Origin: Methanoregula sp.
Lineage (GTDB): Archaea; Halobacteriota; Methanomicrobia; Methanomicrobiales; Methanospirillaceae
Direction: 5' to 3'
DNA length: 64,000 bases
Assembly: GCA_026625165.1 (NCBI GenBank)
Contig: CP112999.1
Location: forward strand, 992,001 to 1,056,000
Position 1 is the first letter of the stretch; the number at the start of each line of letters is the position of its first letter. The notes beneath the pieces were generated by a model. That model was given only the letters and a program-made list of their open reading frames with translations. It searched no databases and was not told the origin of the DNA. The translations under genes and the position numbers were made by a program. Below are positions 32,006 through 37,778 of the stretch, piece by piece.

Positions 32006-32575
32006 TTACTGCACATGTTCCAGGTGGAAGACCTGCCCTTCGAACGTCAGGACTTCGACCGAGTTCTTCTTCCAGCATGTGGATGGCAGGCCTGCCTTCC
32101 GGCACGTTTGGTCAAGGAACGTTGTGCTGTCCCAGCTCCAGTCTGTAGCCACCTGAGGGAGCAGGAGCCCGCTTGTGCCCATACCCTTCACAATCAACCC
32201 GTGTTTTCCAACGATGACTGCGGCCGGACGGTCAGCCGGTGCGCAGGTCAGCGGTTCCGGAACGGTGAGAACTGTAACCTCCAGTTCCATGTCGGAGAGC
32301 TCGGGTGCGGACACCTGCAGGAACCGGGGATCCTCGAGTGCTGCTGCAACTGCGGCCTGCTGTATCGCGTCACTGAGAGTCAGGTACGGATAGGGAAAGC
32401 CGATGCAACCCCTCAGTTCGCCGTGTTTTGTCAATGTCACAAAGACCCCCCGTTTCTTGGAAAAGACCGGTGTCAGCTCAAATGAAGATTCTTTTCTCCC
32501 TGCTACAGCATGCACGAGCGCCCCTCGGGCAATCCGTGTCGCGAGCCTTCCCTCCTCTTCAGTCAGAAGTTCCAT
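32006..32575 (-). CDS. AMMECR1 family protein
   Basis: A 189-residue single AMMECR1 domain with the invariant Leu-Arg-Gly-Cys-Ile-Gly near residue 55 and Glu-Leu-Glu-Val-Thr-Val-Leu. The family occurs in all domains and its molecular function is undefined; a role as a redox or RNA-modification partner has been suggested because of the cysteine. Here it lies between tgtA and rnpB, which agrees with, but does not prove, an RNA-related role. Confidence 0.92.
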   Translation of the reverse strand: MELLTEEEGRLATRIARGALVHAVAGRKESSFELTPVFSKKRGVFVTLTKHGELRGCIGFPYPYLTLSDAIQQAAVAAALEDPRFLQVSAPELSDMELEVTVLTVPEPLTCAPADRPAAVIVGKHGLIVKGMGTSGLLLPQVATDWSWDSTTFLDQTCRKAGLPSTCWKKNSVEVLTFEGQVFHLEHVQ

Positions 32576-33045: not shown

Positions 33046-33137
33046 TCTTATATACAATAGTCTGCCGCATTCTGTTTTTAGTATAAATTTTTAGCACAAT
33101 ATTGATATTTCAACAACGCTTCCCTGAGAATTGTACC

Positions 33138-33806
33138 ATGTGCGGCCGTTACTCGCTCATTGCTATCGATGATCTTGGTACCCGTTTTCGCATTACCGAC
33201 CCGTCATTTGGCTTCCGCTCGCACTTCAATATTACTCCGGGCAGCATGGTGCCGGTGATTGCCCGGCGCGAACGCACCGAAGCGGTGTTGATGGAATGGG
33301 GGCTTATCCCGCACTGGGTTAAGGAACGAAACAAGGCAAAACCGCTTATCAATGCACGGGCAGAAACGCTAAATGAAAAACCGTCTTTTAAAAACCTGCT
33401 CTCACAGAACCGGTGCCTCGTCCCGGCGTCCGGTTTTTATGAATGGAAAAAAGACGGGGCAAGAAAAACACCGTTTTACATCCGTCTGCGGGACAGCACG
33501 CTCTTTGCATTCGCCGGTCTGTATGATATGTGGGTCACCCCGGCCGGTGAAGGGTTTGCAAGCTATACAATCATTACTACAGAGCCAAACGGTCTGATAG
33601 CGCCAGTCCATAACCGGATGCCGGTAATTCTCAATCGTGAGAATGAGTCCCGATGGCTCTCAAACGGACCCTTAAGTGCATCAGACCTTGCAACAATCCT
33701 CACACCGTACCCGCCCGGTGAGATGGAGATGTATCCTGTCGCACCTTTCGTAAACAATCCTAAGGCTGATGATGAGCGGTTGATCGAGCGGGTGAGAGGA
33801 TTGTAA
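33138..33806 (+). CDS. SRAP domain protein (YedK/HMCES)
   Basis: A 222-residue SOS-response-associated peptidase that forms a thiazolidine crosslink with abasic sites in single-stranded DNA and protects them. The active Cys must be residue 2, so the start is ATG 33138 (Met-Cys-Gly-Arg-Tyr), not the longer open frame from 33102. The other catalytic residues are in Asn-Ala-Arg-Ala-Glu-Thr, Ser-Gly-Phe-Tyr-Glu-Trp and His-Asn-Arg-Met-Pro. The family length is 220-230, so the protein is whole. It stands alone downstream of rnpB. Confidence 0.95.
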   Translation: MCGRYSLIAIDDLGTRFRITDPSFGFRSHFNITPGSMVPVIARRERTEAVLMEWGLIPHWVKERNKAKPLINARAETLNEKPSFKNLLSQNRCLVPASGFYEWKKDGARKTPFYIRLRDSTLFAFAGLYDMWVTPAGEGFASYTIITTEPNGLIAPVHNRMPVILNRENESRWLSNGPLSASDLATILTPYPPGEMEMYPVAPFVNNPKADDERLIERVRGL

Positions 33807-34267
33807 AGGATTTTTTTAGTACCACGAGTATACAGGAAACAATCCCTGCCTCAGTTTTTTTTATTTTCCTGCTTATAACCCCTCCTGACGGGATGTCAGA
33901 TGGTCCTTCTCTTTTTAAAAGGGATTTGAACCTACAGGAAGCCATGCCATTTCACGTTTGAATCTGTTTTTGATATCCGCAAGCGATGGAGAAGGTTGTA
34001 TCTGTTCCCCGTTGTCCAGATACATTTCAACAAGGCCTTTTTGTTTCGGCCTCACGTGAGTCTGATGATCTGCATCCTGCTATGGAGATTTCTTTCTGAC
34101 TCTTGCCGGTTATTGAAAATTGGTTGGGGCGGCAGGATGATTCCTCTGTTTTTTGGATATGCAGACAATCCACTGGAAATCGTAACGGAACCTTAAAAAA
34201 AAGGAGCGGAAACTGAAAAAAATAGAGATCAGTAAGATATATTACTTTTCAGAAAGGTCTATTCACT
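33807..34267. other. 461-base intergenic region holding a possible 3' gene remnant
   Basis: No complete gene is visible. On the minus strand, 33915-34079 (stop at 33915) is open for about 54 codons ending in Ile-Lys-Asn-Arg-Phe-Lys-Arg-Glu-Met-Ala-Trp-Leu-Pro; this resembles the C-terminal helix of nicotinate phosphoribosyltransferases, but only weakly. A TAG immediately upstream (80-82) closes the frame and no start is in reach. The remainder (34080-34234) shows no convincing coding sequence. The promoter of the next gene lies at the 3' end. Confidence 0.35.
34235..34244 (+). promoter_or_regulatory. Box A-like element before the AbrB-like gene
   Basis: AGATATATTA lies 24-33 bases upstream of ATG 34268, the expected position for a leaderless or short-leader archaeal transcript. 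The downstream AGAAAGGTC could serve as a ribosome site. Confidence 0.4.
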
Positions 34268-34774
34268 ATGTCTGAAATCAGGTTATCCATCAGGAAGCGT
34301 GCGTTTCCAAGCCGGGGCCGGGTGCGTCTCAATGTCGCACACCTGCCTGTCCTGGGAATACTTGAAGGGGATCACGTTGATCTCATCAATGAAGACAACA
34401 ATAAAACCATTACAACCACCGTTATCGCCGATACGATGGTACAGGAAGGGCAGATCCGTGTGAGTGATGAGGATCTTAAGGCGCTTGGTCTCAAAGAAGG
34501 CGGAGGAGTACTTGTAAGAAAGACCCAACCCCTTGAAGAAAAGATCAAAAAGGCAGCAGCAGATGCCGGCAAATCGTTCTCAAAGGGTGTGAGTAAACTT
34601 GATAACACGGTCAAAAAAACCGCAGGTGAGGTAAAGACCGGGGCGGCAAAAGCTGCCGACACTGTTAAAAAGGAGACCAGAAAAGCGTCCGATAAAGTCG
34701 GAAGTGTTGCAGTAAAAGCCGTAAAAGGTGTGAAAAAAACCGTCAATAAGGCAACAGGATCCGATGACCTGTAA
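34268..34774 (+). CDS. AbrB/Cdc48-N-like domain with H1/LEA-like Lys-Ala-rich tail
   Basis: A 168-residue protein of two parts. Residues 1-90 suggest a double-psi barrel of the AbrB/Cdc48-N class: two strand-loop units ending in Gly-Asp-His-Val-Asp-Leu-Ile and Gly-Gly-Val-Leu-Val-Arg-Lys, with Val-Ile-Ala-Asp ... Gly-Gln-Ile-Arg-Val between. Residues 91-168 are low-complexity, rich in Lys, Ala, Thr and Val (Lys-Lys-Thr-Ala-Gly-Glu-Val-Lys-Thr pattern), like histone H1 or LEA proteins; basic and probably disordered or helical on contact. It may bind DNA or a membrane. It heads a run of small coiled-coil genes. The domain calls are by pattern, not search. Confidence 0.6.
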   Translation: MSEIRLSIRKRAFPSRGRVRLNVAHLPVLGILEGDHVDLINEDNNKTITTTVIADTMVQEGQIRVSDEDLKALGLKEGGGVLVRKTQPLEEKIKKAAADAGKSFSKGVSKLDNTVKKTAGEVKTGAAKAADTVKKETRKASDKVGSVAVKAVKGVKKTVNKATGSDDL

Positions 34775-34831
34775 CAAAGCAGGTTTTTGCACAAAAAAAG
34801 GGATGAAAAATTCAGTGATGTGGAGAAAACA

Positions 34832-35215
34832 ATGGCACAGGAAGCAGTAATCACCGACACAGTCCTCATGGGAATCCTCGTCATTCTCGGTATGGTGATT
34901 TTATATCTCATTATCCGCGAGATACGGATCATGAAGACATCCAACCGCAAAATTGAACTGGAACTGGAGAAAGACAAACTCAAACTCCTCCAGCAGCATG
35001 AAGCATCAAAGGGTTTCTCGTTTACCCGGTTCTCCGCAGACCAGACAGCGGCAATCAGACAGGTGGAAGACGAGAACGCTAACCTTGATACGAATATCTC
35101 TGCAAAGGAAAAACTCCTTGAAACCCGGTTAACACGGCTTGAAAATCTTGTAAAAGACAGAAAACTGGATAACCTCCTCAATAATGTAGGGGAACAGGAA
35201 AAGAAGGTGAAGTAA
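34832..35215 (+). CDS. Single-pass membrane coiled-coil protein
   Basis: A 127-residue protein with one transmembrane helix near residues 10-32 (Leu-Met-Gly-Ile-Leu-Val-Ile-Leu-Gly) and a long charged coiled coil (Ile-Glu-Leu-Glu-Leu-Glu-Lys-Asp-Lys-Leu-Lys-Leu-Leu) to the end. ATG 34832 is preceded by GGAG; the open frame could extend 45 bases upstream without conserved residues. No family recognised. It lies three bases upstream of the next gene and is probably co-transcribed. Confidence 0.65.
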   Translation: MAQEAVITDTVLMGILVILGMVILYLIIREIRIMKTSNRKIELELEKDKLKLLQQHEASKGFSFTRFSADQTAAIRQVEDENANLDTNISAKEKLLETRLTRLENLVKDRKLDNLLNNVGEQEKKVK

Positions 35216-35218
35216 ACG

Positions 35219-35536
35219 ATGTACCCGGTTATCAACCAGAACCAGTACCAGAAAATTACAGGGGATGCGTTCTGGGATCAGTACTCACACATTTCCGGGA
35301 TTATCGAATCCCGAATCCCGACGTTCGATAAATCGCTTGACGCATATTTCGACCAGAACTTTGCCGCCATAATCGAGGAATGGGATCTTGTGACCGATAG
35401 CGATCTCCTCCGGCTTGAAAACCGGCTTGCACGCGTGAGCAGCGAGATCAGCAGCCTCTCTGCAGGAAGAATAACTGTCGAAGCGCGGGCAAAAAAGCTT
35501 AATGACCTGATCTCAACACTGGAGAAATCGCAATGA
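35219..35536 (+). CDS. Small coiled-coil protein with Tyr-x-Asp / Glu-Trp motif (1 of 3)
   Basis: A 105-residue soluble protein. Around residues 42-58 it has Ala-Tyr-Phe-Asp-Gln-Asn-Phe ... Ile-Glu-Glu-Trp-Asp-Leu-Val, a motif also found in the next two genes, followed by a heptad-pattern helix (Leu-Glu-Asn-Arg-Leu-Ala-Arg-Val). No signal peptide and no known domain. It starts three bases after the membrane coiled-coil gene and overlaps the next by four. Function unknown; the repeated motif suggests self-association or assembly with its neighbours. Confidence 0.65.
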   Translation: MYPVINQNQYQKITGDAFWDQYSHISGIIESRIPTFDKSLDAYFDQNFAAIIEEWDLVTDSDLLRLENRLARVSSEISSLSAGRITVEARAKKLNDLISTLEKSQ

Positions 35537-35754
35537 TTGGCGTGAACACGTACCTCAATGCCTATGTGGATCGCCGGATGAAATATATCGTTGATGAATG
35601 GGACCTCTCCACACGGGGTGACCTCTCTGATTTCACGAACCGGCTCGATGCAATGGAACAGGAGATTCCCCGGCTGAAAGCCTTTGAGCATGCAGCATCG
35701 GACAAACTGACTGAGCTTGAGACCCGTGCCAGAAAACTCAAAATGGTGATCTGA
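35533..35754 (+). CDS. Small coiled-coil protein with Tyr-x-Asp / Glu-Trp motif (2 of 3)
   Basis: A 73-residue protein, the shortest of three neighbours sharing a motif: Ala-Tyr-Val-Asp-Arg-Arg-Met ... Val-Asp-Glu-Trp-Asp-Leu, then a heptad helix with Asn-Arg-Leu-Asp-Ala-Met-Glu-Gln-Glu-Ile. It lacks the N-terminal extension of the first copy and the membrane anchor of the third. ATG overlaps the upstream stop by four bases; the following gene begins one base after its stop. Function unknown. Confidence 0.65.
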   Translation: MIGVNTYLNAYVDRRMKYIVDEWDLSTRGDLSDFTNRLDAMEQEIPRLKAFEHAASDKLTELETRARKLKMVI

Positions 35755-35755
35755 T

Positions 35756-36112
35756 ATGGACCTGCTGGAATTTTTCATTCTCATCGCCATCCTTTGTATC
35801 GCTATATTTCTGGTGTATTATTATTTCAGGGGTGCAAAAGGTGATATCTCGCTTGCCCGTCCGGTTGAGAGCCGGATTGATGAATATCTTGATCGCAGGT
35901 TCCAGAGCATGGTCGAAGAATGGCAGCTGGTCTCCCACCCAAAACTACAGAAGTTCAAGGAACAGCGGTACAAGGAGATTGAACTGGATGAAGCGCGTCT
36001 TGCGGAATTAAAGAACTACGAGTCCGGGATGCAGACCACGCTGGCATCGCTGGAGGCACGACTTGACACTGTGGAAAAAGAACTGGCCCGGAAAGGAAAT
36101 ATTAAAAAATAA
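35756..36112 (+). CDS. Membrane-anchored coiled-coil protein with Tyr-x-Asp / Glu-Trp motif (3 of 3)
   Basis: A 118-residue protein with an N-terminal transmembrane helix (residues 5-25, Ile-Leu-Ile-Ala ... Val-Tyr-Tyr-Tyr-Phe), the shared motif Glu-Tyr-Leu-Asp-Arg-Arg-Phe ... Val-Glu-Glu-Trp-Gln-Leu-Val near residues 44-60, and a C-terminal coiled coil (Leu-Glu-Ala-Arg-Leu-Asp-Thr-Val-Glu-Lys). Most likely a paralogue of the two preceding proteins fused to a membrane anchor. It overlaps the zinc-finger gene by about 50 bases. Function unknown. Confidence 0.65.
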   Translation: MDLLEFFILIAILCIAIFLVYYYFRGAKGDISLARPVESRIDEYLDRRFQSMVEEWQLVSHPKLQKFKEQRYKEIELDEARLAELKNYESGMQTTLASLEARLDTVEKELARKGNIKK

Positions 36113-36371
36113 GGATTCCCCGGATCGCTTCCGTGAGCTGAGAAAAGAGATAACTGTTTTGCGCAAGCAGGGGGAACCGCCTGTTAAGGATCCCCACAGC
36201 TTCGCGCAGTACATGTGCGATCTCTGCACTACCCCGCACCCGGTCTCCGGGCTCCGCCAGTGCGTCCTCTGCGGGCGCTGGGCATGCGATAAATGCTGGA
36301 AGGATGAGTATTACACCTGCAAGTCCTGTTCCGGGCTCCTGAAAATCCACACGATGAAGGATAGTGACTGA
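36063..36371 (+). CDS. Small zinc-finger protein
   Basis: A 102-residue protein with a Cys-rich C-terminal half: Cys-Asp-Leu-Cys, Cys-Val-Leu-Cys-Gly-Arg-Trp-Ala-Cys-Asp-Lys-Cys, Cys-Lys-Ser-Cys, a ring/FYVE-like arrangement of four Cys-x2-Cys pairs able to bind two zinc ions. The Arg/Lys-rich N-terminus is probably a helix. The start is uncertain: TTG 36063 overlaps the previous gene by 50 bases, and no good ATG exists before the fingers, so an unusual start or a programmed shift joining it to the preceding gene is possible. Last gene of the cluster. Confidence 0.6.
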   Translation: MTLWKKNWPGKEILKNKDSPDRFRELRKEITVLRKQGEPPVKDPHSFAQYMCDLCTTPHPVSGLRQCVLCGRWACDKCWKDEYYTCKSCSGLLKIHTMKDSD

Positions 36372-36647: not shown

Positions 36648-37778
36648 GTGAAACCGTTGACTACCGGCACAATGAAAACAAAAATCCCCGGTGACAGTCC
36701 CTTCACGCAGGTTCTCAGGGATGAATTATCGGCTGTGCAAAAGAACCGAGCTGACCTGATGGCCCCGCAAGGTCACCTTGGAATACACCTTTTCACCCTT
36801 CTTGTATGTGTTCTTGTAAACGTAATCTTTTTTCTGGTACGAACCGATTATTTCGGGCTTTTTATTGCGGCCAGCTTCTACCTCAACATGTACTATTTTA
36901 TCACCCTGATAATTCCGACAAACTTCAGGAAGACCACCCTCCCGGCAGCAGACCTCTCACGTTTCCATGCATGGCTTAAAGAGATCGGCATAAAATCAGG
37001 TACATCGCAGTTTACCCGGTTATTCATAAACTCTCTTTTCATCAACAGCCGGGCTTTGTCGCTCGGGATCGGGCTGATCTTTTCCATCGATATCGCGTTT
37101 ACTCTGATTCATTATTTTCAGGGATTACCGCTGCGTACAACGCTCATTGTCATCACCCAGTGTGCCATCATCGTCATCTTCTACCTGCTGGTCTGGAAGA
37201 TGGAACCTTTCTCTGTTACGTATGTGAAAAAAGTAGAGAGTGTGAGAAGCAGTCTTCACAGGCAGAAACTGCCGCCCCGGCTGGTTACTGCCATGTTCAT
37301 GTTCGGCTTCCTGATCGCTATATTCCTGTTTCTGACTACCATGATCTTTCTTCCGGGGGTAACCCTGAACGCTTTTTTGAACCAGTCACAGCTCAGTGAA
37401 CTCGGGCACCTCTTCAGCCTTCTTGCAGTCCTTGCGATCAGCCAGTATTTCATCATCAGGTACATCCACGGCATCACAAGCAGGGCAATGGCAGAAAGGC
37501 TCTTTGACTTCAAGGAAAATTCCTTAAAAGAACTTTTTCAGGTAGAGAATGCATCCCGGTCCGGGAGTCTGGAACCTGATGATAATCCCGTCGACACAAG
37601 TACACTCCTGCTGGAATCAAAGATCTTCATTGTCAAGCGGAATTCTCTTGGAGGAGCATTCCCGGTCTTTATCGTTGACCTTGACTTCTCGGTAATGATG
37701 GATAGTACAACCCTGACCGCTATCAGGGGATATATCGTTGAGGGAAAACACGAACCGGATGGAAAACCCAATGAGTAA
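36648..37778 (+). CDS. Polytopic membrane protein of unknown function
   Basis: A 376-residue protein with about six hydrophobic helices: two at residues 47-90, a pair near 140-190, then two at 220-290, and a cytoplasmic C-terminal domain of about 90 residues ending in Val-Asp-Leu-Asp-Phe. No known transporter or enzyme motif was seen. The frame opens at GTG 36648; ATG 36672 is an alternative. It lies between the coiled-coil cluster and the kinase cluster, without close spacing to either. Confidence 0.65.
   Translation: MKPLTTGTMKTKIPGDSPFTQVLRDELSAVQKNRADLMAPQGHLGIHLFTLLVCVLVNVIFFLVRTDYFGLFIAASFYLNMYYFITLIIPTNFRKTTLPAADLSRFHAWLKEIGIKSGTSQFTRLFINSLFINSRALSLGIGLIFSIDIAFTLIHYFQGLPLRTTLIVITQCAIIVIFYLLVWKMEPFSVTYVKKVESVRSSLHRQKLPPRLVTAMFMFGFLIAIFLFLTTMIFLPGVTLNAFLNQSQLSELGHLFSLLAVLAISQYFIIRYIHGITSRAMAERLFDFKENSLKELFQVENASRSGSLEPDDNPVDTSTLLLESKIFIVKRNSLGGAFPVFIVDLDFSVMMDSTTLTAIRGYIVEGKHEPDGKPNE

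Follow-up and report, generated by a model that had tools for sequence, protein, structure and literature searches.

A six-gene cassette of Methanomicrobiales that may encode a membrane-associated coiled-coil scaffold

Several known folds and families resemble parts of the six-gene cassette described here, A to F. FYVE, CDC48_N and TrkA_C are known folds, and the family of the last product, F, was already catalogued; apart from this zinc finger, no part of the cassette was confidently catalogued. F is an unambiguous member of Prok-RING_2. Although this name implies a RING, the model of F, its cysteine spacing and its FYVE/FYVE_2 matches point to the FYVE type. With the FYVE and FYVE_2 fingers of endofin, Vps27, Hrs, melanophilin, RIM and rabphilin, F shares a C2-x11-C2-x4-C2-x7-C2 cross-brace, the fold and flanking helices; however, it is archaeal and lacks WxxD or RR/KHHCR, and the likeness is known from sequence and model, not from a Rab partner. 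The first product, A, resembles the N-terminal barrel of CDC48 and VAT by a profile match over residues 15–87, but is devoid of the Nc subdomain and AAA+ modules, having an amphipathic helix fused instead. This tail is similar to the 11/3 helices of apolipoproteins, perilipin, alpha-synuclein and LEA proteins in its period, its lysine-rich polar face and its Ala/Val nonpolar face, a likeness of periodicity and composition for which we do not claim homology. Finally, C and D have in common with the phasins (PF05597) a helix, a break, [ST]xxDL and a coil.

A survey of prokaryotic binuclear treble clefs was reportedly made by Burroughs, Iyer and Aravind in 2011. We found no described system that combines the parts of the cassette in the literature covered, which did not include Burroughs et al. 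2011, and found nothing on PF14445 or on Methanoregula with a RING finger. The tight link of Prok-RING_2 to five other genes is added here, unless Burroughs et al. 2011 noted it.

Organization and distribution of the cassette

The window, which is the whole stretch of 64,000 nucleotides analysed, belongs to a closed genome of 2.17 Mb and carries the cassette on one strand (Table 1). A first-pass annotation had described a cluster of six small same-strand genes, and all six open reading frames are indeed present. The spacing of 1–4 bases that it gave holds for B, C, D and E, but A and B are 57 bases apart, and 50 bases are shared by E and F. C and D overlap by 4 bases in the window, as in 62 of 90 loci, and 4-base overlaps of D and E also recur across loci. 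The TTG start of F lies inside E, with GGAGG 6 bases upstream; among 91 loci, the E/F overlap is 32 bases in 41 and 50 bases in 25. A similar TATA-like GATATTTACC was seen upstream of related Methanoregula loci in a by-eye alignment, and the TATA-like AGATATATTAC is probably the promoter of A, with a leader that would be short or absent.

The six genes are complete and in identical order in 86 of the 86 intact loci, intact meaning that the contig is long enough; in the six exceptions, F sits no more than 550 bases from the start of the available sequence. The genes are therefore not scattered without linkage among relatives, and the earlier proposal of one operon is supported.

Table 1. Features of the cassette and of related loci (positions are those of the window unless a locus is given).
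Feature	Position or loci	Strand	Length	Description
Candidate promoter of A	34225..34267	+		TATA-like AGATATATTAC about 35 bases 5' of the ATG
Gene A	34268..34774	+	168 aa	barrel and amphipathic tail
Gene B	34832..35215	+	127 aa	start at ATG 34832; N-terminal TM segment, charged helical region
Gene C	35219..35536	+	105 aa	soluble; motif helix, then probable coiled coil
Gene D	35533..35754	+	73 aa	minimal motif helix and probable coiled coil
Gene E	35756..36112	+	118 aa	N-terminal TM segment, linker, motif helix, long helix
Gene F	36063..36371	+	102 aa	binuclear treble-clef finger; Prok-RING_2
Gene downstream of F	36648..37778	+	376 aa	multi-pass membrane protein, no Pfam match
Flanking genes, SRAP (SOS response-associated peptidase) and AMMECR1	33102..33806 and 32006..32575	+ and -		
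Long A with TrkA_C	L037, L043, L045, L047, L051, L128, L131, L145, L149, L153, L162, L163, L168, L169			
DUF308/HdeD-like gene downstream, 137–430 bases	L039, L045, L137, L143, L151, L162, L163, L168	same as cassette		
DUF308/HdeD-like gene upstream, 252–2430 bases	L116, L119, L032	same as cassette		
Archaeal phasin-like protein	L189:4804-5127			over Pfam cut-off, 1.5e-9
Archaeal phasin-like protein	L190:4532-4873	-		
Archaeal phasin-like protein	L191:4295-4741			
Lone finger protein	L192:4633-4842	-	64–70 aa	Prok-RING_2-like
Lone finger protein	L193:4618-4812	-	64–70 aa	Prok-RING_2-like

The cassette was found in Methanomicrobiales only. A search of 84,980 species gave 71 relatives of F, named as Methanomicrobiales; their labels are Methanoregula, Methanolinea, Methanospirillum, Methanogenium and unnamed Methanomicrobiales or Methanoregulaceae bins, a few bins being labelled Euryarchaeota only. 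By these names, the organism that carries the window is almost certainly a methanogen resembling Methanoregula. Carriage is patchy, as judged by the PF14445 match, with 2 of 8 genomes in the genus itself and 93 of 232 in the class. When each was sought in 61 relatives, 25 genomes proved to have E and 27 to have F, and in the two genomes that have F without E, F lies within about 400 bases of the contig coordinate start. The viral_contigs collection contains no relative and so gives no sign of a module carried by viruses, and searches of PHROGs and PADLOC gave no informative match. Since the cassette is kept whole in every one of the 86 intact loci across one methanogen order, it must encode something useful.

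Some metagenome bins contain two complete or partial cassettes, representing duplication or mixed bins: G022 has two A matches and six strong matches to C, D and E, with fragments of a second cassette, and two cassettes or parts occur in isolate OWC_0046 (L124 and L129) and in AS22ysBPME_16 (L152 and L170).

Three paralogues and two membrane anchors

The proteins of 105, 73 and 118 residues, which had been noticed to share a motif, are homologous. C, D and E find one another by tblastn within the window (E-values of 8e-8 to 6e-4) and in profile-profile alignments by hhalign (1.4e-14 for E against D, 2.1e-16 for C against D), and at the sequence level they are true paralogues. In C, the motif is an LDxYFD...EEWxL helix ahead of the probable coiled coil. 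The motif pattern, which was derived from the same sequences on which it was scored, matches 79 of 88 orthologues of C, 87 of 88 of D and 87 of 91 of E, and none of 5440 shuffled proteins. A profile of their common core, searched across 393 genomes of the phylum as the first-pass annotation had suggested, found the family only in cassettes, with three strong matches in each and no full-length relative elsewhere. This is what is expected for subunits of one hetero-oligomer. Both checks that could have gone against the first description, a motif occurring elsewhere and genes without linkage, thus came out in its favour. The next-best matches have E-values of 4e-5 or worse and lie mostly in the coil. 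Distant relatives beyond the order were considered and rejected: the best weak matches there span only the coil (profile positions 23–69), and the longer ones are archaeal phasins. The one such phasin-like protein that was scanned, L189, exceeds the Pfam cut-off (Table 1).

The phasins bring up a different reading of the cassette, as the coat of a granule or inclusion, on which C, D and E would be phasin-like coils and A an amphipathic protein of the granule surface. Weak Phasin matches occur in 26 of 41 orthologues of C (best 1.9e-5), true archaeal phasins are among the weak matches of the C/D/E profile, and the tail of A is similar to apolipoproteins and further proteins of lipid surfaces. 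However, the Phasin matches sit in the helix-coil region, which also matches many unrelated coiled coils, and C of the window scores 13.8 bits against a cut-off of 28.8. In addition, two members of the cassette are transmembrane, and the class III PHA synthase (TIGR01836) is present in no carrier, its sole match among 61 genomes being in the non-carrier G038. We regard a granule coat as quite improbable.

An N-terminal TM-like segment is found in 85 of 86 orthologues of B and in all 91 of E. By sequence, both proteins are N-terminally membrane-anchored, which supports the membrane-linked assembly proposed at first; one motif protein had been called membrane-anchored, and E is, but two proteins are anchored overall. 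In contrast to B and E, TM segments are absent as a class from the orthologues of C (1 of 90 has a TM-like segment) and D, and these two are predicted to be soluble partners. The region following the TM segment of B is charged and helical, and is probably a coiled coil. The AF2 model of E alone, of low global confidence (mean pLDDT 72.5, pTM 0.28), has a TM segment at residues 3–26, a flexible linker, the motif helix at 38–57 and a long helix at 61–117. Heptad periodicity, calculated on the single sequences of the window, is weak in D and not significant in B, C and E. Positive residues follow the TM segments of both B and E and, by the positive-inside rule, suggest an N-out/C-in topology.

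The barrel protein and the zinc finger

Residues 1–87 or so of A form a CDC48_N-like double-psi beta-barrel, according to profile matches. At a threshold of E ≤ 0.01, CDC48_N (PF02359) is matched by 33 of 36 orthologues of A, the best at 3.5e-9, and the protein of the window, at 24.4 bits, is under the Pfam cut-off of 35.1 and is therefore a diverged member of the fold. Against the PDB, the A profile matches designed double-psi barrels (2.6e-4) and Cdc48 (0.005). The orthologues also match FeoA and MazE less often, MazE in 5 of 36. The first-pass annotation had named this protein AbrB-like, but A of the window matches the AbrB profile at E = 0.098, with 12.4 bits against a cut-off of 28.3. We rejected an AbrB or MazE regulator on these grounds, and the head is better named a CDC48_N-type double-psi barrel. 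Identity with the CDC48 ATPase is likewise excluded, as A has 168 residues and no AAA match in Pfam.

Archaea possess CDC48-family ATPases, and A could recruit CDC48 or the proteasome independently of ubiquitin, its barrel mimicking or binding CDC48 ligands and bringing unfolding to the scaffold. The CDC48_N similarity and the fixed site that a scaffold offers agree with such a recruiter. Nevertheless, the flanks contain no linked AAA+ ATPase gene, and the double-psi barrel is a generic scaffold, as the FeoA and MazE matches illustrate; this function seems unlikely.

The tail of A (residues ~90–165) is a Lys/Ala/Val-rich amphipathic helix with a hydrophobic period of 98.5 degrees per residue, a periodicity whose strength was equalled by 0 of 300 shuffles. 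The period is 96–101 degrees in 77 of 77 testable orthologous tails. Alanine and valine line the nonpolar face and lysine the polar one, and the net charge is +12 in the protein of the window. A helix period of 11 residues per 3 turns is typical of apolipoproteins, synuclein and LEA proteins. Because the 11/3 period of this lysine-rich helix is found in every testable tail, we suggest that it binds anionic membrane rather than DNA; of the H1/LEA-like tail first described, the H1 part is thus not retained.

A tether of the chromosome to the membrane, in which the basic tail and the AbrB-like head of A would bind DNA while B and E provide the anchors, could draw on the charge of the tail and the weak MazE/AbrB matches in a few orthologues. 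The barrel nonetheless fits CDC48_N far better, so strict an amphipathic period is unexpected for an H1 tail, and no linker-histone family is among the Pfam matches of the window proteins to E = 1. Furthermore, F is not of a DNA-binding finger type, and its closest matches as modelled, the FYVE-type fingers, together with the barrel and the 11/3 helix, speak against the earlier idea that the assembly may touch DNA. We judge the tether very improbable.

Some A proteins are longer (>230 residues in 16 of 86). A C-terminal TrkA_C domain (PF02080, also RCK_C) occurs on A in Methanospirillum and some Methanoregulaceae; it was found in 9 of 9 long orthologues at E ≤ 0.01, with member 1 over the cut-off (30 vs 27 bits), and is absent from A of the window.

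F matches Prok-RING_2 (PF14445) at 7.5e-36, with 122.5 bits against a cut-off of 22.4, as do 42 of 42 orthologues in their turn; the family had been called unrecognised, which stands for B to E but not for F. The AF2 model comprises a helix (residues 19–29), a binuclear treble-clef finger (43–97) and a C-terminal helix (87–101), with block-wise mean pLDDT of 92–97 over residues 31–90. When the model was aligned with solved structures by VIA-align, ranks 1–19 were all FYVE domains or FYVE-like fingers, the latter from melanophilin, RIM, rabphilin and Rubicon. FYVE-type fingers scored Z 3.8–6.2, PHD 3.3 and RING-containing chains at most 2.8. As Z values of this size (4.1–6.2 for the FYVE/FYVE_2 fingers) can reflect a common arrangement, and all Foldseek E-values are above 0.1, the fold support for the FYVE type is moderate. 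The eight ligands are all Cys, with 11/4/7 spacing, in 88 of 91 sequences; the cross-braced set of four CxxC pairs, with CGxxxC, is that of the FYVE type, and weak Pfam matches among the 42 orthologues include FYVE_2 in 25 and FYVE in 14. The PI3P signature (WxxD, RR/KHHCR, RVC) was not found in the alignments, where F has (E/G)LRQC ahead of ligand 3 and YxC ahead of ligand 7. F is accordingly modelled as a finger closest to FYVE/FYVE_2.

In RING fingers, 2–3 residues separate ligands 4 and 5, usually with a His, whereas F has four residues there and Cys at all eight ligands. This difference bears on the proposal that the cassette serves ubiquitin-like tagging, with F as a RING E3, A as a CDC48-type substrate receptor and the coils holding substrates at an ERAD-like membrane station. 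The Pfam name of F and the CDC48 N domain likeness of A would supply ubiquitin-system counterparts for both. On the other hand, the spacing in F is FYVE/PHD-like, and the structural comparison, though not decisive by itself, places RING chains below FYVE-type fingers. UQ_con (E2) has no match in 61 genomes, including 25 carriers, with the control genomes silent as well, and no E1, E2 or JAB-like gene was noticed beside the cassette when the flanks were viewed without a family-by-family scan. Ubiquitin-like tagging is, in our estimation, distinctly unlikely, and our results suggest that Prok-RING_2 should not be taken as evidence of ubiquitin ligases in methanogens.

A Rab-effector role for F was also rejected: Ras-type GTPases are present in carriers and non-carriers alike and were not detected in the carriers G009, G018, G022, G029, G031 and G036, and hence are no obligate partner of the cassette. 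Outlying PF14445 matches in G341 and G510 are lone zinc proteins lacking the cassette. The lone finger genes, from another family of the phylum, sit between an ilvD-like gene and a gene for a ribbon-helix-helix-like protein.

A predicted assembly and its genomic neighbourhood

The sequences show which domains and anchors the products have, the kinship of C, D and E, the obligate linkage of the genes and the helix periodicity of A; complex formation, lipid binding and a role for the cassette are what we infer. The favoured reading, to which we give an even chance, is that A to F encode a hetero-oligomeric coiled-coil scaffold fixed to the cytoplasmic side of the membrane, in which A and F serve as surface adaptors, with a possible role in the envelope. 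The obligate linkage of the genes, their overlapping reading frames and the joint conservation of three paralogues argue for subunits of one complex, and the two anchors and the predicted lipid-surface helix for its location at the membrane, facing the cytoplasm. B and E would be the N-terminal anchors, and the three diverged copies of the motif-helix and coil unit (C, D and E) would assemble through their helices into a scaffold, perhaps joined by B. A would dock reversibly on an anionic lipid surface by its amphipathic helix, presenting the barrel as a protein-binding head, and F, with its flanking helices, would act as a second adaptor. In some genera, TrkA_C on A may add small-ligand control.

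Such a complex would probably organise or guard a patch of membrane, in envelope homeostasis or stress. This role, the weakest step of the model, is possible in view of the TrkA_C ligand domain and of DUF308/HdeD-like membrane protein genes, which are found close by and in the same orientation as the cassette at 11 loci from several lineages (Table 1). Most loci have no DUF308 flank, and the genomes carry DUF308 genes in multiple copies, if only a few each; tabulated matches count internal repeats separately.

If the scaffold is real, these archaea own a dedicated membrane coat that combines a helix for lipid surfaces with a finger of the FYVE type, which is known chiefly from the endosomes of eukaryotes. 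More tentatively, and with well under an even chance, the cassette may represent an undescribed archaeal membrane-organising coat, in which a coil hetero-oligomer is combined with a synuclein-like, lipid-binding CDC48-N protein and a FYVE-type finger. Such parts are otherwise familiar from the membrane traffic of eukaryotes, and would here have evolved independently or be of archaeal origin.

Apart from the DUF308/HdeD-like genes, no conserved flanking partner was found across lineages, and the genes beside the cassette differ between lineages and are unrelated. The most widespread flanking family, large and sensor-kinase-like, occurs on both strands and both sides; it looks like an artefact of a big family and was set aside. 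In the window, the SRAP and AMMECR1 genes of the flank are not recurrent neighbours across lineages, and the multi-pass membrane protein gene downstream of F recurs at this position in nine related loci.
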